Assembly (NCBI GenBank): GCA_903958285.1
Contig: CAJBSR010000196.1
Coordinates: 1-13,864, forward strand
From: an uncultured Sphingomonadales bacterium
GTDB lineage: Bacteria; Pseudomonadota; Alphaproteobacteria; Sphingomonadales; Sphingomonadaceae
Length of the DNA: 13,864 nucleotides
Direction: 5' to 3'
This document shows, piece by piece, positions 2,592 to 13,864 of the stretch. Both the position numbers and the translations under genes were made by a program. The first letter of the stretch is position 1; every line of letters starts with the position of its first letter. The notes beneath the pieces were generated by a model. It made no database searches. It worked only from the letters and a program-made list of their open reading frames with translations, and was not told the origin of the DNA.

Positions 2592-5102
2592 TTAGAACTT
2601 CACGCTGCCTTCCACACCGATCAGGCGACGCGTGCCCGGCGTGATGAACGATCCGCCAAATTCAACGGCGGTGATGACTTCGTTGAGATAGCGCTTGTTG
2701 AGCAGGTTGTTGGCAAACACGGCCAGACCGAAGCGGTCCGACTGGATACCGATACGCCCGTTCATGACGCCAAAGGAATTCCGCTTCGCGACATCATACT
2801 TGCCGTCACCGACAAAGGCAGGAAGCGCGAGTGCGGAGCCCGGCAGCAGGCCGGAGAACAGCGTCGGGATCGACTGGTTCTGCACGGTGTGGAACCAGGT
2901 CGGGCCGGTCAGGCGGTAATCGACACGACCGACGATCTTCAGATCATCCGAAACAGCATGGTCCAGATCGACACCAACGTTCAGCGTATAGTCCGCCGTG
3001 TAGGGCGACTTGTTGCCGACAGTGTACGGGCGTGAGCTGTTCTGCTTGATCTTGCTGTCGGTGTAGTTGAACGAACCGAACAGCTTGACGCCGCGGACTG
3101 GCTTGACCGTGGTGGAGAGTTCCACGCCCTTCAGGTCGACACGGTCGATGTTCGACACGACGCGCAGCAGGCCGAAGCCGCCGACGAAGAATTCGAAGAA
3201 CTGCATGTCGTGGACCTGCGTGTAATAGCCCGCGAGATCAAACGTCACCGCACCATCGGCAAGATTGCCCTTCACACCTGCTTCAAACGCGCTCGACCAT
3301 TCCTTCTTATACTGGTCGTTCACCTTCACATTGGCGCCGAAGAAGTTGACGAAGCTGTTGGTGATCAGCTGGGCTGACCCCTGGTTGTTGAAGCCGCCGG
3401 ATTTGAAGCCGATGCCCCAGTTGCCATAGATGTTCAGGTCATCATTGGGCTTGTAGCTCAGCGTCACCTTCGGCTCGAACTGCTTGAAGCTTGCGCTCTT
3501 GTCCGTCAGCGCACCGAAGGCCTGGCCGGGGTTGATCGGACCACCGGAGAACGGATCGGTCGCGGTCGGGACAAGCGAAGAGGCTTTGCGGTCTTCCACG
3601 TCATAGCGCACGGCAACACCGGCATCGAACTTGTCACTGGCCTTCCATTCAACCGCACCAAAGGCTGCATAGACGTTGGTGTTGAAGCGGTCGGCCAGAA
3701 GCAGCGTTGTCGGGTTGGTGGATGTCGGCGCGTTGTAGAGCGCCTTAATCACGCCTTTGCCGGTGTCGGCGCCAAGGCTGACACCCACAGTGCGCTTGAT
3801 GTGCAGGTAATAGGCACCCAACTGCCAGTTGATGTTGCCGGCATCACCCATCAGGCGCCATTCGGTGCTGAAGTCAGTCTGCTTGCGGACCTGATATTGC
3901 GTCCCGTCACAGGTGGTGGGGCTATAGGGGCCAAAGGTGGAGCCGTTGGCCGGTGCAAAGATGAACGGAACCGGGATCGCACCGATGCCGCCCGGCTGGT
4001 TGACCGGATAACCGGTCAAGGCCGCTGTGCTGGCAAAGCAGGCATTGACCGCAGCCTGACCGGCAGGGTTGGCCGCGCCGAGGAAGCGGGCAAAGTCGGC
4101 AGACGTGCCGTCAGCCACCAGATCCTGATCGACGTCGGAATACAGCGCCCAGGCAACAAGCTTCAGGCTGTCCGACAATTCGTGATCGAGCTTCGCCGAG
4201 AAGTCGAGGCTCGTCTGGTCGTTGGTCGGACGGATGTTGTTGTAGAATTTGAACGGGTGCTTGTTCACGTCTTCGTAGAAGGCGGGGTTTGCGGCGGCGA
4301 AATTGGGCAGATGGAAGGCGGCATTGAAGGGCAGCGATGCGCCGCTGAATTCCGCATAGCGCGCCTTGAGGTCGATCTGCGTTGGGCCACCGTCGCCAAT
4401 CAGGACGCGGCCATCCAGGGCCCAGTTCTGCTTGTCATCGACTGTCTTCGAATCGGTGAAGACGTTGCGGTAAAAACCATCCGACTTGCTGGCATAGCCG
4501 GAGAGCACGAAGCCTGCGCCCGCGCCGAGCGGCCCGGCAATGTGCGCGGTCGATTCCCAGGTGTTATACTGACCATAAGACAGCTTGGCCGCACCGGTGA
4601 GCGTGTCAGTCGGCTTTAGCGTCTGGATGACGATGGCTCCGGCCGCAGCGTTGCGGCCATAAATGGCGCCCTGCGGACCTTTGAGCATTTCAACCTGACG
4701 CAACGTACCCTGCGGCTGGTTGAGCTGGGCTGTGTTGGTCTTCAAAATGCCGTCGACGACGAGCGCCACGGAGCTTTCCGCGTCGCGTGCGCCGTTGATG
4801 CCGCGGATGTTGATCTGCGTGTCGCCCGCTTCTGCGGTGCCCGTCACGATCGTGATGCCCGGCGTCAGGCGAACAAAGTCTTCTGCCTTGGTGGCACCGG
4901 TGCGACCGATGACTTCAGCGGTGATGACCGCAACCGAGGCCGGAACATCCTGCAGCCGCTCATTCTGGCGGCGGGCCGTGACGATGATCGCGTCTTCGCC
5001 ATCTGCCTGCGGCGCGCTTGTGTCTGTCATTTGCGCCATGGCCGGGGCAGCGAACGTCATCGCGCCTGCGGTGGACATAAGAAGCCATTTTGAAAACGTC
5101 AT
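2592..5102 (-). CDS. TonB-dependent outer-membrane receptor
   Basis: The product is an 836-aa outer-membrane ligand-gated channel powered by TonB-ExbBD. It has a cleavable signal peptide (residues 1-23, AMA|Q) and a TonB-box-like segment AIIVTA at about 38-43. A plug domain covers about 52-165, with the family signature around VEMLKGPQGAIYGRNAAAG (137-155). The beta-barrel ends in VKF, with the terminal aromatic residue typical of outer-membrane proteins; ANNLLNKRYL near the C-terminus is also typical of the family. The start is supported by GGGAG at 5110-5114, 7 nt upstream. It is divergent from the GntR-led catabolic operon and shares its control region, so it probably imports that pathway's substrate rather than an iron chelate; this is inference. 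A TGTATACA operator touches its ribosome-binding site. Confidence 0.95.
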   Translation of the reverse strand: MTFSKWLLMSTAGAMTFAAPAMAQMTDTSAPQADGEDAIIVTARRQNERLQDVPASVAVITAEVIGRTGATKAEDFVRLTPGITIVTGTAEAGDTQINIRGINGARDAESSVALVVDGILKTNTAQLNQPQGTLRQVEMLKGPQGAIYGRNAAAGAIVIQTLKPTDTLTGAAKLSYGQYNTWESTAHIAGPLGAGAGFVLSGYASKSDGFYRNVFTDSKTVDDKQNWALDGRVLIGDGGPTQIDLKARYAEFSGASLPFNAAFHLPNFAAANPAFYEDVNKHPFKFYNNIRPTNDQTSLDFSAKLDHELSDSLKLVAWALYSDVDQDLVADGTSADFARFLGAANPAGQAAVNACFASTAALTGYPVNQPGGIGAIPVPFIFAPANGSTFGPYSPTTCDGTQYQVRKQTDFSTEWRLMGDAGNINWQLGAYYLHIKRTVGVSLGADTGKGVIKALYNAPTSTNPTTLLLADRFNTNVYAAFGAVEWKASDKFDAGVAVRYDVEDRKASSLVPTATDPFSGGPINPGQAFGALTDKSASFKQFEPKVTLSYKPNDDLNIYGNWGIGFKSGGFNNQGSAQLITNSFVNFFGANVKVNDQYKKEWSSAFEAGVKGNLADGAVTFDLAGYYTQVHDMQFFEFFVGGFGLLRVVSNIDRVDLKGVELSTTVKPVRGVKLFGSFNYTDSKIKQNSSRPYTVGNKSPYTADYTLNVGVDLDHAVSDDLKIVGRVDYRLTGPTWFHTVQNQSIPTLFSGLLPGSALALPAFVGDGKYDVAKRNSFGVMNGRIGIQSDRFGLAVFANNLLNKRYLNEVITAVEFGGSFITPGTRRLIGVEGSVKF

Positions 5103-5113
5103 TAGGTATCTCC

Positions 5114-5123
5114 CTGTATACAG
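5114..5123. promoter_or_regulatory. Operator candidate O1, CTGTATACAG palindrome
   Basis: This perfect 10-base palindrome lies in the leader of the TonB receptor gene, its last base overlapping the GGGAG ribosome-binding site. FadR-subfamily GntR proteins usually bind short palindromes with a GT-N(2-4)-AC core, and the regulator gene starts 128 bases away. The same TGTATACA core recurs at 5211. A protein bound here would act as a roadblock or promoter block for the receptor gene. Which protein binds is inferred. Confidence 0.65.
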
Positions 5124-5190
5124 TCATGAGCGCAAACCCTGACCGATCTTTGCTGCCGCGCCCCTTTTTGGCTCGTCCTTTAAACGCGAC

Positions 5191-5218
5191 TTGATGAGAA
5201 GAGTGGATAATGTATACA
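5191..5218 (+). promoter_or_regulatory. Candidate promoter of the GntR-led operon
   Basis: TTGATG at 5191-5196 and TATACA at 5213-5218 are separated by 16 bases and face the regulator gene, whose ATG is at 5251. The -10 element is embedded in the TGTATACA operator, so repressor binding would directly exclude RNA polymerase. It is a consensus match only, with no transcript data. Confidence 0.45.
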
Positions 5219-5233
5219 AATAGCTCTGGTCAA
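5207..5233 (-). promoter_or_regulatory. Weak candidate promoter for the TonB receptor gene
   Basis: On the minus strand TTGACC (5233-5228) is followed after 15 bases by CATTAT (5212-5207). The -35 match is good; the spacer is short and the -10 match is fair. If real, the two divergent promoters overlap around operator O2, and the receptor mRNA would have a leader of about 100 bases containing O1. Confidence 0.3.
5211..5218. promoter_or_regulatory. Operator candidate O2, TGTATACA palindrome
   Basis: This is a second copy of the eight-base palindromic core, centred 96 bases from O1, close to nine helical turns. It overlaps the predicted -10 element of the regulator operon and the spacer region of the predicted divergent promoter. 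Two identical cores in one 148-base intergenic region next to a GntR gene strongly suggest autoregulation and co-control of the receptor. Confidence 0.65.
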
Positions 5234-5240
5234 GTTTTTT

Positions 5241-5245
5241 GGGAG
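5241..5245 (+). promoter_or_regulatory. Ribosome-binding site fixing the regulator start
   Basis: GGGAG lies 5 nt before the ATG at 5251. It selects that ATG over the in-frame TTG at 5239, which has no binding site of its own and would add four residues. Confidence 0.75.
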
Positions 5246-5250
5246 TAGAG

Positions 5251-5919
5251 ATGTCGCGCGCCTCCGACCGCGCCTTTGAGGCCATCCGCAGCATGATTCT
5301 GTCGGGCGAACTGCCGGCGGGTGCGCAGGTCGTGGAAGAGGCTCTCGCCGAGAAGTGTGGCGTCTCGCGGACCCCGGTGCGTGATGCGCTGCGGCGGCTG
5401 GAATCCGACCTTCTTGTTGTGCGTACGGACACACAGCGCAGCTTTGTGGCGGATTGGTCCTTGGACGATGTGGCCGATGCTTTTGAGCTGCGGTCGATCT
5501 TGGAGGCCGAAGCGGCACGGCGCGCCGCCGACCAGATGACGGAGGGCGCGCTGGCCCGCATTCGTGATGCGAATCGCCAGATTGCCGACGCGATCATGAA
5601 GCCCGTGCCCGACGTTGGCGGCTTTTTGGAAGGCAACCGGGAGTTTCATGCCGTCATTCTTGAAGTGGCAGGATCGCGGCGGCTCGCGTCGCTGCTGGGA
5701 ACGTTGATTGAACAGCCGGTCGTCTGGCGCACGGCGCATCACTATAGCCGCGAGGCCCTCCACCGGTCGCACAGTGAGCATGACGAGCTGATTGCCGCCT
5801 TTGCCCGCCGCGATGGCGCTTGGGCCAAGTCCATCATGACAAGCCATATTTTGCGGGCCTATCATGCCTATGCCGATGCGCATGGCCTGACCGCCGAGTT
5901 TCAGCAGGCTGCCGAATAA
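5251..5919 (+). CDS. GntR-family transcriptional regulator, FadR subfamily (FCD domain)
   Basis: The product is a 222-aa DNA-binding regulator. The N-terminal winged helix-turn-helix (about residues 5-65) has the GntR signature: MILSGELPAGAQVVEEAL, then the recognition-helix region GVSRTPVRDALRRLE. The C-terminal all-helical FCD ligand domain (about 75-210) keeps the likely metal or acid-binding positions N129-x3-H133, H177 and H199. Proteins of this subfamily usually repress small catabolic operons and are released by a carboxylate ligand. It heads the operon and its stop overlaps the next start (TAATG), so it is co-expressed with the enzymes. Two TGTATACA palindromes upstream are its probable targets. 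The inducer is unknown, plausibly a pathway acid intermediate. Confidence 0.93.
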   Translation: MSRASDRAFEAIRSMILSGELPAGAQVVEEALAEKCGVSRTPVRDALRRLESDLLVVRTDTQRSFVADWSLDDVADAFELRSILEAEAARRAADQMTEGALARIRDANRQIADAIMKPVPDVGGFLEGNREFHAVILEVAGSRRLASLLGTLIEQPVVWRTAHHYSREALHRSHSEHDELIAAFARRDGAWAKSIMTSHILRAYHAYADAHGLTAEFQQAAE

Positions 5920-6827
5920 TGGGTCCCGATCAGATCGAAATGGTCGAAGTCGCCCCGCGCGATGGCCTTCAGAACGAAAAGACGCTGATTGAAACGGCGG
6001 ACAAGATCGCGCTGATTGAGCGGGCCATTGCAGCGGGCGCGCGCCGGATTGAGGTGACGAGCTTCGTCAACCCCAAGGCTGTGCCGCAAATGGCGGACGC
6101 CGAAGCGGTCTGTGAAGGCTTGCCCGAGCGCAACGACGTGACCTTTATCGGCCTTGTCATGAATGCGCGCGGTGCGACGCGGGCGCTCGCCACCGGACGG
6201 ATTGACCAGCTGGGCGCAGTCGCTGTGTCGACCGACGGCTTTGCCATGGCCAATCAGGGGCAGACGAGCGACGGATCGGTTGCGGCGGCGCAAGAGATCA
6301 TCGCGCTGTCACAGGCCGCGGGCAAGACCGGTCAGGTGACCATCGGCGCCTCTTTCGGCTGCCCGTTTGAGGGCGAAGTGGCGCAGGACCGCGTGGTCGC
6401 CATGGCGGTCGCGCTGGCGGACGCCGGGCCTGTCGAGATTGGCCTTGCTGATACCATCGGCGTCGGCAATCCGGCTCAGGTCGCGGCGCTGGTCGCTAAG
6501 GTTCGGGCCGCCGTTCCGCATATCCCGGTCCGCGTTCATTTCCATAATACCCGTGGCACGGGGCTCGCCAATGTGTGGGCCGCGATTGCGGCGGGTGCCG
6601 TCGCGGTCGACGCCTCGATCGGCGGGCTGGGCGGCTGCCCTTTTGCTCCGGGTGCTGCGGGCAATGTCTCCACCGAAGACGTCGTTTACATGCTGGAGCG
6701 CGCAGGCGTGCGCACCGGCCTTGATCTTTCCGCGCTCGTTTCAGCCAATCATTGGCTGGGCGAGATCATGCAGCGCACACTTCCGGGCATGGTGGCCAAA
6801 GCGCCGCCCTTCCCCAAACAGGCATAA
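5919..6827 (+). CDS. Hydroxymethylglutaryl-CoA lyase-family enzyme
   Basis: This 302-aa TIM-barrel lyase belongs to the family that cleaves HMG-CoA to acetyl-CoA and acetoacetate. By motif alignment to human HMG-CoA lyase (from memory) all key residues are present: R14-D15 in PRDGLQNE, E45 in IEVTSF, D178, the metal ligands H207 and H209 (HFHNTRG), C240 in the loop GLGGCPFAPGAAGN, and N249. The start is the ATG at 5919, overlapping the regulator stop; the frame is open further upstream, but the first motif comes right after this start. Its place beside a CoA-transferase rather than leucine-degradation genes suggests the substrate may be a different 3-hydroxy-3-substituted acyl-CoA. In the segment after the metal ligands it has NTRGTGLAN, where the human enzyme has DTYGQALAN. 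The family is certain; the substrate is not. Confidence 0.9.
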   Translation: MGPDQIEMVEVAPRDGLQNEKTLIETADKIALIERAIAAGARRIEVTSFVNPKAVPQMADAEAVCEGLPERNDVTFIGLVMNARGATRALATGRIDQLGAVAVSTDGFAMANQGQTSDGSVAAAQEIIALSQAAGKTGQVTIGASFGCPFEGEVAQDRVVAMAVALADAGPVEIGLADTIGVGNPAQVAALVAKVRAAVPHIPVRVHFHNTRGTGLANVWAAIAAGAVAVDASIGGLGGCPFAPGAAGNVSTEDVVYMLERAGVRTGLDLSALVSANHWLGEIMQRTLPGMVAKAPPFPKQA

Positions 6828-6845
6828 AGAAGGGACTTTCGATCC

Positions 6846-8894
6846 ATGGGTTATCGTTTGGGTGTGGATGTCGGCGGTACGTTTACCGATCTCCTGCTGT
6901 TCGACACAGCGACCGGCGCATTTTGGCGGCACAAGACGCCATCGACGCCGCATGATTCCTCTGAAGGCATTTTGAATGGCGTGACAGCCATCTGCGCGAA
7001 TGCCGGTGTGGCCGCCAATCAGATCGACTATTTCCTGCACGGGACGACCGTTGCGACCAATGCCGTGCTGGAAGGCAAGGGCGCCAAGGTCGGCCTCGTC
7101 ACCACCGAAGGCTATCGCGACATCATGCAGATCGCGCGCAGCTTCGTGCCCGGTGGTCTGGCCGCATGGATCATCTGGCCCAAGCCACAGCCGCTGGCCG
7201 CGCTGGAGAACACCGTCACCGTCAAGGGCCGCATGAATGCGGAAGGCAAAGAAGTCCGCCCGCTCGACGAAGCCGATGTCCGCACCCAGCTGACCTATTT
7301 GAAAGGTCAGGGCGTTGAGGCGATCACGGTCAGCCTGATCAACGCCTATGCCAGCGGCGCGCACGAAGCCCGCATCGGCAAGATCGCAGCCGAAGTCCTG
7401 CCGGACATCCCCGTCTCGCTCAGCCATGAAGTCCTGCCCGAAATGCAGGAATATGAGCGGACGCTGACGACGGTTGCCAACGCCTCGGTCCGTCCGGTCG
7501 TCGGCAAATATGTGTCGAACCTGCGCAACCGCCTGGCCAAGGAAGGCATGACGGGCAAGCTGTCGCTGCTGCGGTCCGATGGCGGTCTGATGAGCGCGGC
7601 CAAGGCCGAAGAACATCCCGTCAGCATCCTGATGTCGGGTCCGGCAGGTGGCGTCACCGGCGCCATCTGGGTTGGCCGCAATGCGGGCATCAAGAACATC
7701 CTGACGCTCGACGTTGGCGGCACCAGCACAGACGTGGCTCTGATTGAAAATCTGGAGCCACGCCGTCAGCGCACGACCGAAGTCGGCCATCTCTCCGTCC
7801 GTGCCTCGGCACTCGATGTGAAGACGGTCGGCGCAGGTGGTGGCTCCATTGCTTATGTGCCGGAACTCACCCGCGCGCTGCGCGTCGGTCCGCAAAGCGC
7901 CGGTGCCGTGCCGGGGCCGGTCGCGTACGGCAAAGGCGGCGTCGCCCCGACCGTGACCGATGCCAATGTCGTCCTCGGCTATCTGCCGGAAAATCTGCTC
8001 GGCGGCACCTTCAAGCTCGACCGCGCAGGCGCCAAGGCCGCTGTCCAGACCATCGCTGACGCGCTTGGCATTGACCTGATGGCAGCCGCGCGCGGCATCA
8101 TCGACATCGTCAATGAAAACATGTTTGGCGCCTTGCGGATGATCTCCGTCCAGCAAGGCTATGCTCCGCGCGACTTCGCGTTGATGGGCTTTGGCGGGGC
8201 AGGGCCGCTGCACGTGAATGCCGTCGCCAAGCTGATGGGCAGCTGGCCCGCCATCTCTCCCGTCAGCCCCGGCGTGCTGTGTGCGCTGGGCGATGCGACG
8301 ACGCGGATGCGGACCGAAACCGCCCGCTCCTGGTCGCGTCTGGCGCAGGACACTAAGCCGGAAGATCTGGTCGCGGTGCTCGCCGAAATGGCCGAGCAGG
8401 TGACGGGCGAACTCCTGTCCGACGGTGTTCCGGCGGATGAGATCACGACCGCGTTTGAAGTCGATGTCCGCTATGCCGGACAGGCGTTTGAAGTGCCGTT
8501 GACGATCTCGGCTGATCTGCTTGCGGCGGAAGGCATTGCTGGCATTCTCGGCCGCTTTGATGAGGAGCATAAGCGCCTCTTCACCTTCAACATGGATACC
8601 CCGCATGAGATTGTGAACCTGCGGGCCGTGGCCTTGGGCCGTGCGCTTGATCTGCCTTCGCCGCCGATTGAAAAGGGGAATGGAGATCCGTCCGCGGCCA
8701 AGCTGCGGGATCACACGCTCTGGATGGACGGTCGCGAACATGCAGCGGTCATCTATGACCGGGCCCTGCTGAAGGCGGGGGACATCATCCCGGGGCCTGC
8801 CATTGTTTGCGAAATGGACTCCACGACGCTGATCGAATCCGATTGCGTCGGCACTGTCGACCACGTCGGCAACATCCTCATCAATCTGGCCTGA
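6846..8894 (+). CDS. Hydantoinase/oxoprolinase family protein, HyuA-type ATP-binding subunit
   Basis: The 682-aa protein is the ATP-binding subunit of the HyuA/ApcA/AcxA superfamily, which activates a carbonyl or amide oxygen by phosphorylation in ATP-dependent hydrolases (N-methylhydantoinase, 5-oxoprolinase, caprolactamase) and ketone carboxylases. The N-terminal domain has the phosphate-binding motif GVDVGGTFTDLLLFD (6-20) and FLHGTTVATNAVLE (63-76). A second phosphate motif LTLDVGGTSTDVAL (286-299) is followed by VGAGGGSIA (328-336), PTVTDANVVLGYL (368-380) and GFGGAGPLH (448-456). The length fits the family (about 680-700 aa). AGGGA lies upstream in the 18-base gap after the lyase gene. 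HyuB follows after 16 bases, its obligate partner. The substrate class cannot be decided from sequence. Confidence 0.92.
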   Translation: MGYRLGVDVGGTFTDLLLFDTATGAFWRHKTPSTPHDSSEGILNGVTAICANAGVAANQIDYFLHGTTVATNAVLEGKGAKVGLVTTEGYRDIMQIARSFVPGGLAAWIIWPKPQPLAALENTVTVKGRMNAEGKEVRPLDEADVRTQLTYLKGQGVEAITVSLINAYASGAHEARIGKIAAEVLPDIPVSLSHEVLPEMQEYERTLTTVANASVRPVVGKYVSNLRNRLAKEGMTGKLSLLRSDGGLMSAAKAEEHPVSILMSGPAGGVTGAIWVGRNAGIKNILTLDVGGTSTDVALIENLEPRRQRTTEVGHLSVRASALDVKTVGAGGGSIAYVPELTRALRVGPQSAGAVPGPVAYGKGGVAPTVTDANVVLGYLPENLLGGTFKLDRAGAKAAVQTIADALGIDLMAAARGIIDIVNENMFGALRMISVQQGYAPRDFALMGFGGAGPLHVNAVAKLMGSWPAISPVSPGVLCALGDATTRMRTETARSWSRLAQDTKPEDLVAVLAEMAEQVTGELLSDGVPADEITTAFEVDVRYAGQAFEVPLTISADLLAAEGIAGILGRFDEEHKRLFTFNMDTPHEIVNLRAVALGRALDLPSPPIEKGNGDPSAAKLRDHTLWMDGREHAAVIYDRALLKAGDIIPGPAIVCEMDSTTLIESDCVGTVDHVGNILINLA

Positions 8895-8910
8895 CGAAAG
8901 GGACACAACC

Positions 8911-10797
8911 ATGCCTGCAACAATCGTTCAGACCAACACGACGCCATTCAAGAAAGTGGCGATTGATCCGGTCACCCTCGACATCATGGAAAACGCGCTG
9001 CGCAATGCGCGCGTTGAAATGGATGCCACCCTTGTGCGCACCGCCATGTCGCCTGGTATCCGCGAACAGGGCGATGCCTTCCCGCTGATCGCCGATCACA
9101 CCGGCAAGATGATTGTCGGCCAGTTCGGCAGCTTCATCGGTGGCTTCCTCGACAATTATGAAGGCACGCTCGAAGACGGCGACATGATCTTCCTGTCTGA
9201 CCCTTATTCGGTCGGCGGGGCGGTGAGCCACTCTAACGACTGGCTTGTGCTGCTCCCCGTGTTCAAGGACGGCCGCCTGATCGCCTATACCTCGATGTTC
9301 GGCCATCAGTCCGACATTGGCGGCAAGGTCGTCGGCTCCATGCCGATCAACGCCCGCTCCATCTTCGAAGAAGGCGTCCGCATTCCGCCCGTTAAAATCT
9401 GGAAGAAGGGCGAGTATAATGATGATCTGATGAAGCTCGTCATGCACCAGACCCGTAAGCCGGACTGGTGTGCAGCCGATTTGAACGCGCTCATCGCGTC
9501 TTGCCGTGTGGCGGCCCGCCGTGTGGTCGAAATGGCAGAGCGCTTTGGCGATGACGTCTATGTCTCGGCCACGCAGGAGCTTCTCGCGCGCAACCACCGC
9601 GCGATGAAGACGCTGTTGTCTCAAGCCGTCAGCGAAGAGCCGGTGAGCTTTGAGGATTATATTTGCGACGACGGCATGGGCTTTGGCCCTTATCGCATCA
9701 AATGCACGATGCGCCGCGAAGGCGAAGTCGTCATCCTCGATTTCGACGGAACCGACCCGCAATCGATCGCTTCGATCAACTTCTATCTGAACGAGAACAT
9801 GTTCAAGATGTTCTTCGGCATCTACATGATCATGGTCTTCGACCCGCAGATCCTGTTCAACGACGGCTTCTACGATCTCATCGATGTCCGCATTCCAGAA
9901 GGGTCGCTCCTGAAGCCGAAATTCCCGGCAGCACTGTCGGGCCGCACCCATGCTTTGGGCCGCATCTTTGACATATTGGGCGGTCTGCTCGGTCAGAAGA
10001 CGCCGGAATTCCTGAACGCCGCTGGCTTCTCTTCGTCGCCGCATCTGTTCTATTCGGGCAATGATCAGCGTCCGGGCAAGGGCAATGCCTGGTTCCAGCT
10101 GTTCCAGATCGGCTTTGGCGGTATTCCGGGGCGTCCCTTGGGCGACGGGCCGGACGGCCACTCGCTCTGGCCGGGCTTCACCAACGTGCCCAATGAGTTT
10201 CTGGAACGTTACTTCCCGATGATCATTGAACGCTATGAGACCGAGCCGGACTCGGGCGGTGCGGGTCTGCATCGCGGCGGCAATGGTATTCACATGACAT
10301 ATCGTTTCCTGTCGGCCGGCACGATCTCCATCCATGATGACCGCTGGTTCGTGCCCCCTTGGGGCGTGAATGGCGGTGAACCCGGAAAGCGCGCGCGCAA
10401 GATCCTCGAAAAGGCGGACGGCACCCAGATCATCATCGGCAATAAGGTCGAAGATATCGATGTTCAGGTCGATGATCAGCTGCACTTCATCACATGGGGC
10501 GGCGGTGGCTGGGGCGACGCTTTGGAGCGCGACCCTGCCTTGGTCGCCAAGGAGATCACACAGGGTCTCGTGACGCCTGAAGGTGCGCGTGATTATGGCG
10601 TGGTTGTCGATGCGTCCGGCGTCGTGGATGCAGCGGCCACCGATAAGCTGCGCGCTGACATGCGTGCGTCGCGTGGCGAACTCCTGCTGTTCAACTCTGG
10701 CCCCGGCATTGAGGTGCTGCGCGCCAATTGTCTGGCAGAAACGGGCCTGCCCGCGCCTGTCCAGCCTGTGTGGCAGCATCTGGAGGCCGCAGAGTGA
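8911..10797 (+). CDS. Hydantoinase/oxoprolinase family protein, HyuB-type subunit
   Basis: The 628-aa HyuB-type catalytic partner is somewhat longer than many family members. Family features run in order: LDIMENALRNARVEMDATLV (23-42), SPGIREQGD (47-55), GDMIFLSDPYSVGG (90-103), HSND (107-110), then GHQSDIGG (131-138) and GSMPINARSIFEEGVRIPP (142-160). HSND keeps an H-x-x-D pair and GHQSDIGG an H-x-x-D-x-G-G block, both common in the family and likely metal or substrate binding. Near the C-terminus Gly-rich blocks (about 450-460, GGAGLHRGGNG; about 530-537, WGGGGWGD) are also typical. AAAGGGA lies just upstream of the ATG. No biotin carboxylase or small gamma subunit follows, unlike acetone and acetophenone carboxylase operons, which slightly favours a hydrolase or lactamase. 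The last codon overlaps the next start. Confidence 0.92.
   Translation: MPATIVQTNTTPFKKVAIDPVTLDIMENALRNARVEMDATLVRTAMSPGIREQGDAFPLIADHTGKMIVGQFGSFIGGFLDNYEGTLEDGDMIFLSDPYSVGGAVSHSNDWLVLLPVFKDGRLIAYTSMFGHQSDIGGKVVGSMPINARSIFEEGVRIPPVKIWKKGEYNDDLMKLVMHQTRKPDWCAADLNALIASCRVAARRVVEMAERFGDDVYVSATQELLARNHRAMKTLLSQAVSEEPVSFEDYICDDGMGFGPYRIKCTMRREGEVVILDFDGTDPQSIASINFYLNENMFKMFFGIYMIMVFDPQILFNDGFYDLIDVRIPEGSLLKPKFPAALSGRTHALGRIFDILGGLLGQKTPEFLNAAGFSSSPHLFYSGNDQRPGKGNAWFQLFQIGFGGIPGRPLGDGPDGHSLWPGFTNVPNEFLERYFPMIIERYETEPDSGGAGLHRGGNGIHMTYRFLSAGTISIHDDRWFVPPWGVNGGEPGKRARKILEKADGTQIIIGNKVEDIDVQVDDQLHFITWGGGGWGDALERDPALVAKEITQGLVTPEGARDYGVVVDASGVVDAAATDKLRADMRASRGELLLFNSGPGIEVLRANCLAETGLPAPVQPVWQHLEAAE
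10782..10786 (+). promoter_or_regulatory. Ribosome-binding site fixing the CoA-transferase start
   Basis: GGAGG inside the end of hyuB lies 7 nt before a GTG at 10794. This selects the GTG that overlaps the HyuB stop (GTGA) over the in-frame GTG at 10803 and over further upstream candidates inside hyuB. Confidence 0.75.
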
Positions 10798-11990
10798 CTG
10801 TTGTGAACACGGGTGCATTGAAGGACATTCGCGTTGTCGAACTCGGCCAGTTGCTGGCCGGGCCCTTTTGCGGACAATTGCTTGGCGACATGGGTGCCGA
10901 CGTGATCAAGGTCGAACCGCCGGTCACGGGCGATCCGATGCGCGAATGGGGGCAGGGCGACCAAAAGGTCCAATGGGAAGTCATCGCCCGCAATAAGCGG
11001 TCAGTGAGTGCCAATCTGCGCGTGCCCGAAGGGCAGGCGCTGGTGAAGCGGCTGATTGCGCAGGCCGATGTTCTCATCGAGAATTTCAAGCCCGGCACGA
11101 TGGAGAAATGGGGCCTTGGGCCTGACGTTCTGCTGGCGGAATTCCCCGGACTCATCATCGCGCGCATGTCCGGCTATGGGCAGACGGGCCCCTATTCCAA
11201 CCGCGCCGGCTTTGGCGGCATTGGGGAAGCGATGGGTGGCTGGCGCTATATCGTTGGGGAACCAAACCTCCCGCCCAGCCGCATGGGCGTGTCCATCGGC
11301 GACACGCTGACGGCAACCTATGGTTGCATGGGCGTGTTGGCGGCGCTGCATGAGCGGGACCGCTCCGGCAAGGGCCAGGTCATTGATGCGGCGCTTTATG
11401 AAAGCGTGCTGCAGGTGATGGAAGGGCTGGTGCCTGAATATGACCGCATGGGCCTGATCCGCGAACGCTCAGGCTCGGTGTTGAAGGGCATCGCTCCGTC
11501 CAACGTCTATAGCTGCAAGGACGGCGAGTTCATGATCGGCGCCAATAAGGACTCGCTCTGGAAGCGGCTGGCCGATGCGATGGGCCGTCCCGAATTGGGC
11601 GATGACCCGCGCTATGCGACGCATCTGGCGCGCGGCGAAAATCAGGATGAGCTGGATGCGCTCATCAACGATTGGACCAAGACGCTGACTGTTGATGACG
11701 TCGACGCGCTGATGATCGAACACTCCATCCCCGCCGGTCGCGTCTACCGTGCGCCGGACATGCTGGAAGACCCGCATTTTCAGGCGCGCGAAGCGATCAT
11801 CGAGGTGGAAACAGAACGCTTCGGCCCGCTCAAGATGCAGTCGAGCTTCCCCAAATTCTCCGCCACCCCTGGCAGTGTCCGGCGTGCAGCACCGTCCAAG
11901 GTCGGGCAGCATAATGCGGAGATTTATGGCGAGTTGCTGGGCCTTGGTGCAGCGGACCTCGATGCCATGGTTGAGAAGGGCGTGATCTAA
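10794..11990 (+). CDS. Family III CoA-transferase (CaiB/BaiF/formyl-CoA transferase type)
   Basis: The 398-aa enzyme moves CoA between acyl-CoA and a free carboxylate by way of an aspartyl anhydride. Conserved blocks are DIRVVELGQLLAGPFCGQLL (11-30), LGDMGADVIKVEPP (30-43), ADVLIENFKPGTMEKWGL (91-108) and MSGYGQTGPY (125-134). The catalytic Asp is D170 in GVSIGDTLTATYG, the position of the nucleophilic Asp in formyl-CoA transferase. GKGQVIDAALYE follows at about 205. The length is normal. Start GTG at 10794 overlaps the HyuB stop by four bases, so translation is coupled. Downstream it converges on the flavoprotein gene with overlapping stops. It probably activates the carboxylic acid made by HyuAB for cleavage by the lyase encoded in the same operon; donor and acceptor are unknown. 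Confidence 0.93.
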   Translation: MTVVNTGALKDIRVVELGQLLAGPFCGQLLGDMGADVIKVEPPVTGDPMREWGQGDQKVQWEVIARNKRSVSANLRVPEGQALVKRLIAQADVLIENFKPGTMEKWGLGPDVLLAEFPGLIIARMSGYGQTGPYSNRAGFGGIGEAMGGWRYIVGEPNLPPSRMGVSIGDTLTATYGCMGVLAALHERDRSGKGQVIDAALYESVLQVMEGLVPEYDRMGLIRERSGSVLKGIAPSNVYSCKDGEFMIGANKDSLWKRLADAMGRPELGDDPRYATHLARGENQDELDALINDWTKTLTVDDVDALMIEHSIPAGRVYRAPDMLEDPHFQAREAIIEVETERFGPLKMQSSFPKFSATPGSVRRAAPSKVGQHNAEIYGELLGLGAADLDAMVEKGVI

Positions 11991-13360
11991 ACCAGCACCT
12001 TGCCCGGATTGAGGAGGCCCATCGGATCAAAGGCCGCTTTAAGGCGGCGCATGGTGGCGATCTCATCTGTGCTGCGGGAGAGGTGGAGGAAGTCGCGCTT
12101 GTGAAGGCCAATGCCATGTTCGGCGGAGATCGATCCGTCGAGCGTCTGCGCGACTTCGTACACCGCTTCTTCCACCGCCAGCAGATCGCCCGGACCAAAG
12201 CCGCCTGCGATCAGGTGGACGTTGCCGTCGCAGACATGGCCGAAATAGATTTGCGTCGTCCCCGGCCAGCGTGCTTCTAGGGCTGCGGTGCAATTCTCCA
12301 CGAACGCGCCGATGCGGCTGGTGGGCACGCTGATGTCGAAATTGCCGACCGGGTTGAAGGCTTGGATCAGTTCCCCGCCCATGTCGCGCACCGACCAGAT
12401 GGCGCGCGTCTGCTGAACCGATTGGGCGAGCACGGCGTCCTCAGCCAGACCTTGTTCAAAGGCGGCTTCAAGGAAGGCGGACAGTTCCGCCTCGGCCTGT
12501 TCGCCAGAGGATGACACTTCGGTGATGACATAGCAGCCCGCACCAGGTGCAAGTGGTGGTGGGGCGGACTGCTTGGCGGCGGCGCGGACATAGAATTCGG
12601 GCCACATCACCTCGAATGCCGACAGGCTATCTCCCAGTCGTTCGCGCGCCAGACCAAGGAAACGTTCAACACCCGCATAGTCGGCAAAGCTGGCTAAGGA
12701 GGTTGCCACACTGCGTGGCTTGGGCGCCATGCGCAGCACGACGCGGGTGATAATGCCCAATGTCCCTTCGCTGCCTATGAAGATCTGTTTGAGATCATAG
12801 GCGGCGTTGTTCTTCAGCATCTGGTTCATCGACGAGACGATGGTGCCGTCGGCAAGTACGGCCTCCAGCCCGAGCACCATGGCGCGGGCCATGCCATAGC
12901 GCAGCACCCGGTTCCCGCCGGCATTGGTCGAAAGGTTGCCGCCGATCTGACAGGTGCCGCGCGAGCCGATATCGAGCGGAAAGAGCATGCCGGCGGCGTC
13001 CGCGGCAATCTGGATGGCTTCCAGCGGGACGCCCGCCTGCGTCGTCAGCGTCTGCGAGACGGGGTCCACCGCTTCGATCTTGTTCATCCGCTCCATCGAG
13101 ATCAGCAGCGCGCCCTCGTTCGGCACGGTCCCGCCGGTCAATCCCGTCAGCCCGCCTTGCGGCACCACGGGGATGCGATGCGCGGTTGCGATCTTCATCG
13201 CGTCCGACACCTCTTGCGTGGAACGTGGTCGGAACAATGCGAGCGGCTTGACGCCCGGCGCGGCGCGCATCAGCCAGTCGCCAAAATATTTATCGCTGAT
13301 TTCGGTTTCGGGTGGATTATGGGGGAAGGCCGCGATCAACGCGTCGAGGGCGGATGACAT
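11987..13360 (-). CDS. FAD-binding oxidoreductase, GlcD/D-2-hydroxyacid dehydrogenase type
   Basis: This 457-aa cytosolic flavoprotein of the vanillyl-alcohol-oxidase fold oxidises D-2-hydroxyacids (D-lactate, D-2-hydroxyglutarate, glycolate) in its family. The FAD-binding domain (about 38-215) has VVPQGGLTGLTGG (65-77), IGSRGTCQIGGNLSTNAGGN (131-150) and IGSEGTLGIITR (195-206). The C-terminal cap and substrate domain has the metal/substrate motif GHVCDGNVH (374-382), the catalytic EHGIG (414-418) and the closing NPGKV (451-455). GGGAG lies 9 nt before the ATG at 13360-13358. The gene is convergent with the catabolic operon (stop codons overlap by two bases) and divergent from the Rieske oxygenase. 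It may oxidise a hydroxyacid made in the same pathway; the specific acid is not readable. Confidence 0.92.
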   Translation of the reverse strand: MSSALDALIAAFPHNPPETEISDKYFGDWLMRAAPGVKPLALFRPRSTQEVSDAMKIATAHRIPVVPQGGLTGLTGGTVPNEGALLISMERMNKIEAVDPVSQTLTTQAGVPLEAIQIAADAAGMLFPLDIGSRGTCQIGGNLSTNAGGNRVLRYGMARAMVLGLEAVLADGTIVSSMNQMLKNNAAYDLKQIFIGSEGTLGIITRVVLRMAPKPRSVATSLASFADYAGVERFLGLARERLGDSLSAFEVMWPEFYVRAAAKQSAPPPLAPGAGCYVITEVSSSGEQAEAELSAFLEAAFEQGLAEDAVLAQSVQQTRAIWSVRDMGGELIQAFNPVGNFDISVPTSRIGAFVENCTAALEARWPGTTQIYFGHVCDGNVHLIAGGFGPGDLLAVEEAVYEVAQTLDGSISAEHGIGLHKRDFLHLSRSTDEIATMRRLKAAFDPMGLLNPGKVLV

Positions 13361-13422
13361 GGTGAAACTCTCCCATATTGTATGTGTCGCGTATCATTGC
13401 GCTTCCGGGAATGGAGCGTAAG
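13361..13422. promoter_or_regulatory. 62-base divergent promoter region between flavoprotein and Rieske genes
   Basis: Both genes must be driven from, or transcribed through, these 62 bases. The segment ATTGTAT at 13377-13383 matches one half of a TTGTATACA-type site, but the other half reads GTG instead of ACA. TACAAT (13382-13377, minus strand) could be a -10 for the flavoprotein, without a good -35. No full TGTATACA palindrome is present. Confidence 0.35.
13413..13416 (+). promoter_or_regulatory. Ribosome-binding site fixing the Rieske oxygenase start
   Basis: GGAG lies 6 nt before the ATG at 13423. Two other in-frame ATGs exist: 13411 has its purine run directly adjacent, and 13432 has a poorer upstream sequence. 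Confidence 0.6.
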
Positions 13423-13864
13423 ATGCAAGCCATGATATGGGAAGAGGTGAAGGCTCTTGTCGATGATCGCATCGATGACGGCTGGTTCAGCGTGCACAAA
13501 CGGGCGTTTACGGCGCAAGAGGTCTTTGACCTGGAGATGCGGCATGTCTTTGAAGGCGGCTGGGTCTTTCTCGGCGTGGCAAGCCAGTTGCCCAATCCGC
13601 ATGATTATCTGACGACCACTGTCGGCCGCGTGCCTGTCGTCGTGATGCGTGATGGGGAAGGCGCGCTTGGCGCCTATATCAACGCCTGTACGCACAAAGG
13701 CGCGCTCATCTGCCACAAGCGGACGGGCAGCGGGCGGCTGCATGTCTGCCGCTATCACAGCTGGAGCTTTGACAGCGCAGGCAAGAATGTCGCGGTCAAG
13801 GCGATGAAGGACGGCGCCTATTCGGACACGTTCAAAGCTTTTGACCGCAACCTTGTCCGCCTCG
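13423..13864 (+). CDS. Aromatic-ring-hydroxylating dioxygenase large (alpha) subunit, Rieske type (partial, C-terminus off the right edge)
   Basis: An open frame of 147 codons runs off the edge, beginning MQAMIWEEVKALVDDRIDDG. The N-terminal pattern (VDDRIDDGWFSVHKRAF, then VFEGGWVFLGVASQLPNPHDY) resembles alpha subunits of the benzoate/anthranilate/salicylate oxygenase branch. The Rieske [2Fe-2S] ligands are complete: C89-x-H91 in CTHKGA and C109-x2-H112 in CRYHSW, with 17 residues between. The mononuclear-iron catalytic domain would lie beyond the window. It would need a small subunit and a reductase, expected to the right. It likely dihydroxylates or hydroxylates an aromatic acid; the exact substrate is unknown. 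It is divergent from the flavoprotein gene. Confidence 0.9.
   Translation, partial: MQAMIWEEVKALVDDRIDDGWFSVHKRAFTAQEVFDLEMRHVFEGGWVFLGVASQLPNPHDYLTTTVGRVPVVVMRDGEGALGAYINACTHKGALICHKRTGSGRLHVCRYHSWSFDSAGKNVAVKAMKDGAYSDTFKAFDRNLVRL

Follow-up and report, generated by a model that had tools for sequence, protein, structure and literature searches.

The 13,864-base stretch of DNA analysed here (the window) is the entire contig CAJBSR010000196.1 of a 3.0 Mb draft assembly in 593 contigs (GCA_903958285.1), from an uncultured Sphingomonadales bacterium. It carries a five-gene operon that is one version of a widespread and apparently undescribed gene set of bacteria and archaea, built around the two subunits of a HyuAB-type enzyme. 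We favor, with confidence that is evenly balanced, the reading that this cassette encodes a modular, conserved route for breaking down a cyclic imide or lactam. In that reading the central intermediate is likely an alkylmalate, and the products are a 2-oxo acid plus an acyl-coenzyme A (acyl-CoA). The reading builds on what was observed of gene content, conservation, co-occurrence, residues and an operator pattern. The operon comprises the following genes:

5251 to 5919, plus strand: GntR/FCD regulator, the first operon gene (reading frame, GntR and FCD domains)
5919 to 6827, plus strand: DRE-TIM lyase resembling 3-hydroxy-3-methylglutaryl-CoA (HMG-CoA) lyase (PF00682 and PRK05692 matches)
6846 to 8894, plus strand: HyuA, the ATP-binding subunit (Hydantoinase_A match)
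8911 to 10797, plus strand: HyuB, the metal-site subunit (Hydantoinase_B match)
10794 to 11990, plus strand: family III (CaiB) CoA-transferase, with a GTG start at 10794 (CoA_transf_3 match)

A preliminary description, made from the sequence alone, had named five co-directional genes with spacings of -1, 18, 16 and -4 bases, and the reading frames reproduced these values exactly: a 1-base overlap between gntR and the lyase gene, gaps of 18 bases before hyuA and 16 bases before hyuB, and a 4-base overlap between hyuB and the CoA-transferase gene. The families it had named from motifs were also right, all five proteins scoring over the Pfam cut-offs for their families. Because the contig is the whole window, genes farther downstream are not visible.

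The genes stay together well beyond this genome. We compared 151 loci, comprising the window, 10 plasmid records (30 listed of 925 matching), the best 80 of 569 genome loci and 60 hand-picked Sphingomonadales stretches; 139 of them carry a cassette-type HyuB, and the other 12, with a distant HyuB (about 30% identical), served as controls. Clustering at 97% identity left 132 loci, 99 of which extend at least 7 kb on each side of HyuB (hereafter full loci). Near HyuB in these 99 we detected the CoA-transferase in 84, the HMG-CoA-lyase-like enzyme (HMGL) in 76 and an isochorismatase-family amidase in 73, with lyase and CoA-transferase together within 10 kb in 73; less frequent were LeuC (17), a PrpB-like lyase (8), MmgE/PrpD (6) and a CitE-like lyase (2), and a hydratase of LeuCD or MmgE/PrpD type was present in 22. 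The profile models behind these counts detect rather than test, being built from the loci counted. CoA-transferase, lyases, amidase and hydratases were found near none of the 12 controls. At least 13 of 20 Sphingomonadales stretches repeat the window's exact gene order on a single strand, so that the order is not unique to this genome; elsewhere the CoA-transferase gene is often divergent. Cassette-type HyuB occurs in 96 of 296 sampled Sphingomonadales genomes (99 at E 1e-60, from which G027, G046 and G076 were dropped because their sole match was about 30% identical) and, at E 1e-150, in 14 of the 398 genomes of a phylum sample, the window's own included. Plasmid records of Novosphingobium, Acidiphilium, Geobacillus, Rubrobacter and haloarchaea encode HyuB proteins 45-90% identical to that of the window, and the relatives among the best 80 of 569 genome loci are mostly proteobacterial, gammaproteobacteria and one SAR86 genome among them. 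We found no description of the gene set in the open-licence papers searched, a scope outside which most subscription papers fall. Family and context support the earlier proposal of an uncharacterized catabolic route whose genes remain linked.

HyuA and HyuB carry the motif pattern, as distinct from structure, of the ATP-dependent hydantoinase/oxoprolinase branch of their family. The caprolactamase paper PMC8453981 describes two DxGGT motifs and one GxxPGP motif in the HyuA-type subunit and an Asp-His-Asp-His tetrad in CapB. In the window, HyuA has intact DVGGT (residue 8), DVGGT (289) and GAVPGP (353) motifs, and D55, H107, D110 and H132 of HyuB match the tetrad by pattern and spacing only. 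The order HyuA-HyuB-CaiB, with no third (gamma) gene, is the two-gene organization that PMC5214803 assigns to hydrolases. Among proteins of solved structure, the best matches were N-methylhydantoinase 7hk5 (455 bits for HyuA, 210 for HyuB) and 6yra (402 and 199), followed by acetophenone carboxylase (326 and 120) and acetone carboxylase (233 and 52). The search results label 6yra as 5-oxoprolinase and hydantoinase; we take it to be a caprolactamase. The cassette thus resembles caprolactamase CapAB and other ATP-dependent hydantoinases and oxoprolinases in its two subunits, ATP motifs and metal-ligand pattern; it differs in falling far below the caprolactamase NCBIfam equivalog cut-offs (CapA 528 and CapB 217 bits, both against 1000) and in being tied to an amidase, a CoA-transferase and a lyase. 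At the last tetrad position, 7hk5 has Gln in the alignment where the window HyuB has H132. Two haloarchaeal HyuB proteins (L041, L042) have Asn there.

On these matches HyuAB is closest to hydrolases rather than to carboxylases, which bears on the ketone substrate also offered in the preliminary description. In that variant HyuAB would activate or carboxylate a ketone to give a 3-hydroxy-3-substituted dicarboxylate. In its favor, acetone and acetophenone carboxylases are members of the same family as HyuAB. The carboxylases score lower than the hydrolases for both subunits, the two-subunit organization is that of hydrolases, and a ketone would leave the conserved amidase unexplained. We therefore set ketone carboxylation aside as highly improbable.

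Two side observations concern HyuAB. On plasmids pJE1 and pTomTYG65b (L037/L038) HyuAB lies with a flavoprotein, a zinc-binding dehydrogenase/quinone oxidoreductase and a succinate-semialdehyde dehydrogenase, in stretches where neither a lyase nor a CoA-transferase is annotated. MmgE/PrpD and a RedY/HapK-like gene are present on pJE1 as well. This is perhaps a divergent use of the ring-opening enzyme. A Sua5/YrdC-like gene lies near HyuAB in nine of 139 loci (such as L054, L059, L072, L097, L105, L113 and L114; one member scanned). YrdC proteins use bicarbonate. Caprolactamase requires it as well, according to PMC8453981, so a functional link with HyuAB is possible.

The five operon genes do not by themselves make up the complete route: an isochorismatase-family amidase belongs to the cassette and was missing from the list. 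In the complete genome of a genus-mate (G059, HyuB 96% identical) the same genes run TonB receptor, GntR, lyase, HyuA, HyuB, CoA-transferase, amidase, FAD oxidase and Rieske gene, and the amidase gene falls at a precise point:

11987 to 11991, no strand: 3' junction of the CoA-transferase and oxidase genes, exactly where G059 has a 633-base isochorismatase-family amidase gene

In the window the amidase gene is absent from this junction and both flanks abut, as judged against the G059 locus (L126, 12090-12722). The window genome has a diverged relative of the amidase family on contig C346, 56% identical to the Novosphingobium capsulatum enzyme. An amidase-family gene was present somewhere in all seven genomes of one search, and a second search found a match in seven of eight, G034 having only 34-39% identity and the eighth genome, G142, not being in the HyuB list. 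Among proteins of solved structure, the cassette amidase of N. capsulatum matches best N-carbamoylsarcosine amidohydrolase (26st, 156 bits) and, at 147 bits, 3ot4/3uao, the latter of which we take to be the maleamate amidohydrolase NicF. By family and context, the best reading of HyuAB with the amidase is an ATP-driven opening of a cyclic imide or hydantoin followed by loss of ammonia.

The N-methylhydantoin pathway (HyuAB plus N-carbamoylsarcosine amidohydrolase) begins with the same two enzyme families and supplies the closest relatives of solved structure. In a hydantoin-type route HyuAB would act as an ATP-dependent hydantoinase, and the amidase would hydrolyze an N-carbamoyl compound to an amino acid, the CoA-transferase and lyase acting later on its carbon skeleton. 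The match scores given above favor such a route, as does a cluster of allantoinase/hydantoinase-like proteins in three loci (the one member scanned was under all equivalog cut-offs). The cassette differs from the N-methylhydantoin pathway, however, in adding CoA transfer, retro-aldol cleavage and, in the 22 loci noted above, a hydratase. The recurrent LeuCD, MmgE/PrpD, PrpB-, CitE- and LeuA-type enzymes would have no explanation in a hydantoin route, and no recurrent aminotransferase or ammonia-lyase cluster was noticed, in a comparison that included no search aimed at them and in which not every cluster was identified. We regard the hydantoin route as unlikely, while giving it some weight.

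What turns the balance toward an alkylmalate is the way in which lyases and hydratases replace one another beside HyuAB. An HMGL or CitE enzyme is present in 75 of 84 full loci with CaiB versus three of 15 without it (p 1e-7), whereas the PrpB/dimethylmalate-lyase type shows the opposite distribution (1/84 versus 7/15; p 3e-6) and occupies six of the 12 full loci that have neither CoA-transferase nor HMGL. The one PrpB-like lyase scanned matches methylisocitrate lyases and 2,3-dimethylmalate lyase 3fa3. A CitE-like lyase occurs in four of 139 cassette loci, two of them (L097 and L114) without HMGL, and the one scanned is closest to the citE and RipC models, under both cut-offs; in Haladaptatus a LeuA-like lyase sits beside CaiB. 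LeuC/LeuD and MmgE/PrpD are hydratase/dehydratase families; LeuCD enzymes hydrate alkylmaleates, alkylmalates are the substrates of PrpB-type lyases, and CitE-type lyases act on malyl- or citramalyl-CoA. The alkylmalates are a single substrate class that fits all of these slot enzymes, so the HMGL-like enzyme should act on the CoA ester of an alkylmalate, and we propose that it is an alkylmalyl-CoA lyase. Seven genes stand in a row at one locus (L182, genome G217), LeuC-LeuD-amidase-lyase-HyuA-HyuB-CaiB, and four Sphingomonadales LeuC copies near HyuB branch outside the clade of seven presumed housekeeping LeuC proteins. Seven loci also share a cluster of sigma-54 regulators; the best model for the one member scanned is PrpR (590 against a cut-off of 499, 545 against a cut-off of 703). 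A further stretch (L227, G200:C1:1250000-1269900) has LeuC-like, HMGL-like, CoA-transferase and aldehyde-dehydrogenase-cluster genes without HyuAB, and a relative of the amidase.

The lyase and transferase of the window are themselves compatible with more than one acyl-CoA. The lyase passes the HMG-CoA-lyase subfamily model PRK05692 (298 bits, cut-off 246) and keeps R14, D15, E45, H207, H209, C240 and N249, presumably its catalytic and metal-binding residues; across 85 cassette lyases the R, D and E are kept in 84 and the two H, the C and the N in all 85. Its pocket residues bear no clear mark telling HMG-CoA from alkylmalyl-CoA. The CoA-transferase scores 415 bits against Pfam CoA_transf_3 (cut-off 23.3) and reaches no equivalog cut-off; the closest named models are dicarboxylate CoA-transferases (glutarate, mesaconate), under their cut-offs, and human succinate-hydroxymethylglutarate CoA-transferase is among its better solved matches (193 bits). 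This match, the subfamily score and the conserved residues would suit a route in which the CoA-transferase makes HMG-CoA, the lyase splits it to acetoacetate and acetyl-CoA, and HyuAB with the amidase frees HMG from a six-membered imide or lactam. Such a route would give LeuCD and the PrpB-type lyases no role. In a quick lyase tree (104 rows, 84 of them cassette lyases) a branch with an approximate likelihood ratio (SH-aLRT) support of 99 parts the human and Pseudomonas aeruginosa HMG-CoA lyases from the rest. This argues only weakly against HMG-CoA, because those two lyases also served as outgroup and because Bacillus subtilis 1ydo, which branches next, and 6nds, among the long branches, lie on the cassette side. 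We consider the HMG route quite unlikely.

A separate concern was that the lyase might be the only HMG-CoA lyase of the genome and serve leucine breakdown, with the CoA-transferase and lyase lying beside HyuAB by chance. The first half of this concern has some substance: at E 1e-20 the cassette lyase is the sole match in the complete genus-mate G059 and in three more of the six genomes searched (G156, G209 and G157), and all four carry a methylcrotonyl-CoA-carboxylase-type subunit, the solved matches of the G059 protein being methylcrotonyl-CoA carboxylase (MCC) and related carboxylase beta subunits. In these four genomes the cassette lyase may have a second role in leucine breakdown. Within the window's family (213 genomes), however, the lyase is present in all 58 HyuB genomes versus 32 of 155 others, and 119 of 207 genomes with an MCC-type subunit are without such a lyase, counts for which genome lists were entered by hand and at most seven candidates scored per genome. 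The lyase thus tracks HyuAB and not the MCC-type gene, so leucine breakdown does not explain it, and the window's enzyme, which resembles leucine HMG-CoA lyase in subfamily model and catalytic residues, departs from it in this distribution. Gene order and the putative operator described below also tie the genes together. Leucine breakdown as the role of the operon was set aside on these counts, and chance adjacency strikes us as very improbable. The window holds no MCC gene; elsewhere in its genome a second, truncated lyase (41% identical) lies beside a CoA-transferase on contig C213. Two non-cassette lyases (L244 and L245) were also considered as leucine enzymes by a neighboring carboxylase and rejected, their neighbors being an amidohydrolase and a molybdopterin enzyme, and a SUF protein.

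Some lyases of the cassette type do occur without HyuAB, since 70 of the 84 cassette lyases fall in one clade of the tree with 12 lyases that have no HyuB nearby. One locus (L236 of G150, near 4482-9371; G150 is not in the HyuB list) has a lyase 86% identical to that of the window near a transporter of the major facilitator superfamily and a LigXa-like Rieske oxygenase, which suggests that enzymes of this lyase type may also serve in pathways other than the cassette's.

Regulation points to a single local unit. The divergent TonB-dependent receptor gene and the intergenic elements are:

2592 to 5102, minus strand: TonB-dependent outer-membrane receptor, divergent from gntR
5115 to 5122, no strand: second copy of TGTATACA, 12 bases upstream of the start of the TonB-receptor gene
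5208 to 5220, no strand: putative operator TAATGTATACAAA, 30 bases upstream of gntR

The putative operator is palindromic, the form expected for a GntR/FCD regulator. Of 30 divergent TonB-GntR intergenic regions, which include two pairs of near-copy loci, 28 contain the core TGTATACA, and in 21 of these 28 it lies 30-40 bases upstream from where gntR starts in the alignment. The core occurs 2.7 times per kb in these regions versus 0.05 per kb over the loci. Two copies, as in the window, occur in none of the other 29 regions examined. From the intergenic sites we drew the 13-base pattern TAWTGTATACAWW and searched eight chosen genomes, each of which has it at exactly one place, with no second place in the draft genome of the window. 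In seven the site is the promoter of the cassette gntR or operon; the eighth, G287, is absent from the HyuB list and has the site between a CoA-transferase and the lyase. Presence at these sites is expected, because the pattern was drawn from them, and its absence elsewhere is the new fact. One place per genome supports one dedicated local regulon and suggests that the GntR protein acts through the putative operator. A sigma-70 scan of positions 5000-5400 found no promoter. A TonB receptor matching the same model at more than 500 bits is present in 33 of 40 stretches. The divergent receptor and the shared putative operator probably belong to the set; solved relatives of the receptor match mainly its plug region and are uninformative on the ligand.

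Together, the cassette genes would support the following mineralizing pathway, most of it encoded by the operon, with substrates, products, order of steps and GntR binding being predictions from family and context. At the expense of ATP, HyuAB would activate the ring and open it to a half-amide, from which the isochorismatase-family cysteine hydrolase, encoded on another contig in the window genome, would free ammonia to leave a dicarboxylate. With an unsaturated substrate (a maleimide), the LeuCD- or MmgE/PrpD-type hydratase of some relatives would add water to form a 2-hydroxy-2-alkyl-3-alkylsuccinate, that is, an alkylmalate. The CaiB-type transferase, probably with succinyl-CoA as donor, would load CoA onto the carboxylate adjacent to the carbon that bears no hydroxyl group, and the HMG-CoA-lyase-like enzyme would split the alkylmalyl-CoA into an acyl-CoA and a 2-oxo acid, which would be pyruvate for a methyl substituent. 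GntR would control the operon, and probably also the divergent TonB receptor, via the TATTGTATACAAT-type operator. Substituted maleimides are the substrate class that fits best. Family and context likewise support the ATP-dependent opening of a cyclic imide or lactam, the CoA loading by a family III transferase and the retro-aldol cleavage put forward in the preliminary description. Acetyl-CoA as a fixed product fared less well, as the replaceable partners indicate cleavage of an alkylmalate to a 2-oxo acid and an acyl-CoA; it and the ketone substrate are the parts of the earlier proposal that were not supported.

Several points weigh against the alkylmalate pathway. Hydantoin-pathway enzymes are among the closest relatives of known structure for HyuA, HyuB and the amidase. 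Because the lyase scores above the HMG-CoA lyase subfamily cut-off, HMG-CoA stays a possible substrate, and the tree does not settle the choice. The amidase gene is not adjacent to the operon in the window, and the window and most Sphingomonadales cassettes are without a linked hydratase (LeuC in 4 and PrpD in 0 of 43 full loci); genome G000 carries a single LeuC, which falls in the presumed housekeeping clade, and one unlinked MmgE/PrpD, and G059 is without MmgE/PrpD. In 15 of the 99 full loci no lyase of the HMGL, CitE or PrpB type was recognized near HyuB, although one of these (Haladaptatus) has the LeuA type. An alkylmalate step common to all cassettes presupposes similar substrates whichever lyase is present. 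As for the counts, the loci used to build the detection models were also the ones counted, the loci were hand-chosen and all 12 controls were Sphingomonadales. A reversed control pattern for the operator matched once, in G287, and not at all in the other seven genomes.

Downstream of the operon, two further genes complete the contig:

11987 to 13360, minus strand: GlcD-like FAD oxidase, convergent with the CoA-transferase gene (4-base overlap)
13378 to 13864, plus strand: Rieske oxygenase large subunit, N-terminal part, cut by the contig end

Among the 150 loci searched only G059 shares either of them, and they are therefore probably not core to the cassette; we set them aside as pathway members. 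At the other contig edge (3-1809) lie a HlyD-type membrane-fusion protein, found in none of the 150 loci, and a MacB-like permease.

Two known pathways contain comparable chemistry. Anaerobic nicotinate breakdown includes a dimethylmaleate hydratase/dimethylmalate lyase module, made of a LeuCD-type hydratase and a PrpB-family lyase like those of some cassette relatives; most cassettes differ in using CoA-transferase and HMGL-like lyase (73/99), and the proposed imide opening would come first. The itaconate route employs a CoA-transferase, a hydratase and the citramalyl-CoA lyase RipC/Ccl, and shares with the cassette CoA transfer followed by cleavage of a citramalyl-CoA-type ester, with a CitE/RipC-like lyase in the few loci mentioned above; the lyase of the window is of another family, and the cassette adds HyuAB and amidase.

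The cassette thus appears to be a modular pathway, common to sphingomonads, marine gammaproteobacteria (a SAR86 genome too), Geobacillus and haloarchaea, that apparently has no described substrate, and its interchangeable lyases and hydratases narrow the chemistry to a testable panel of imides. A more speculative reading, which we hold to be quite unlikely, is that the cassette is the missing bacterial pathway for the 3,4-disubstituted maleimides left by oxidized tetrapyrroles (chlorophylls, haems and bilins). It is drawn from chemistry and distribution, no identified neighbor gene proving it. If true, methyl-ethyl-maleimide, methyl-vinyl-maleimide and haematinic acid imide would each be converted, with release of ammonia, to pyruvate and one acyl-CoA, which would be butyryl-, butenoyl- or glutaryl-CoA. 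Such a role would suit the spread of the cassette in aquatic and soil bacteria and haloarchaea, habitats suggested by record titles, as well as its dedicated TonB receptor. Were substituted maleimides the substrate, the cassette would supply a late stage in the breakdown of chlorophyll, haem and bilins in nature.

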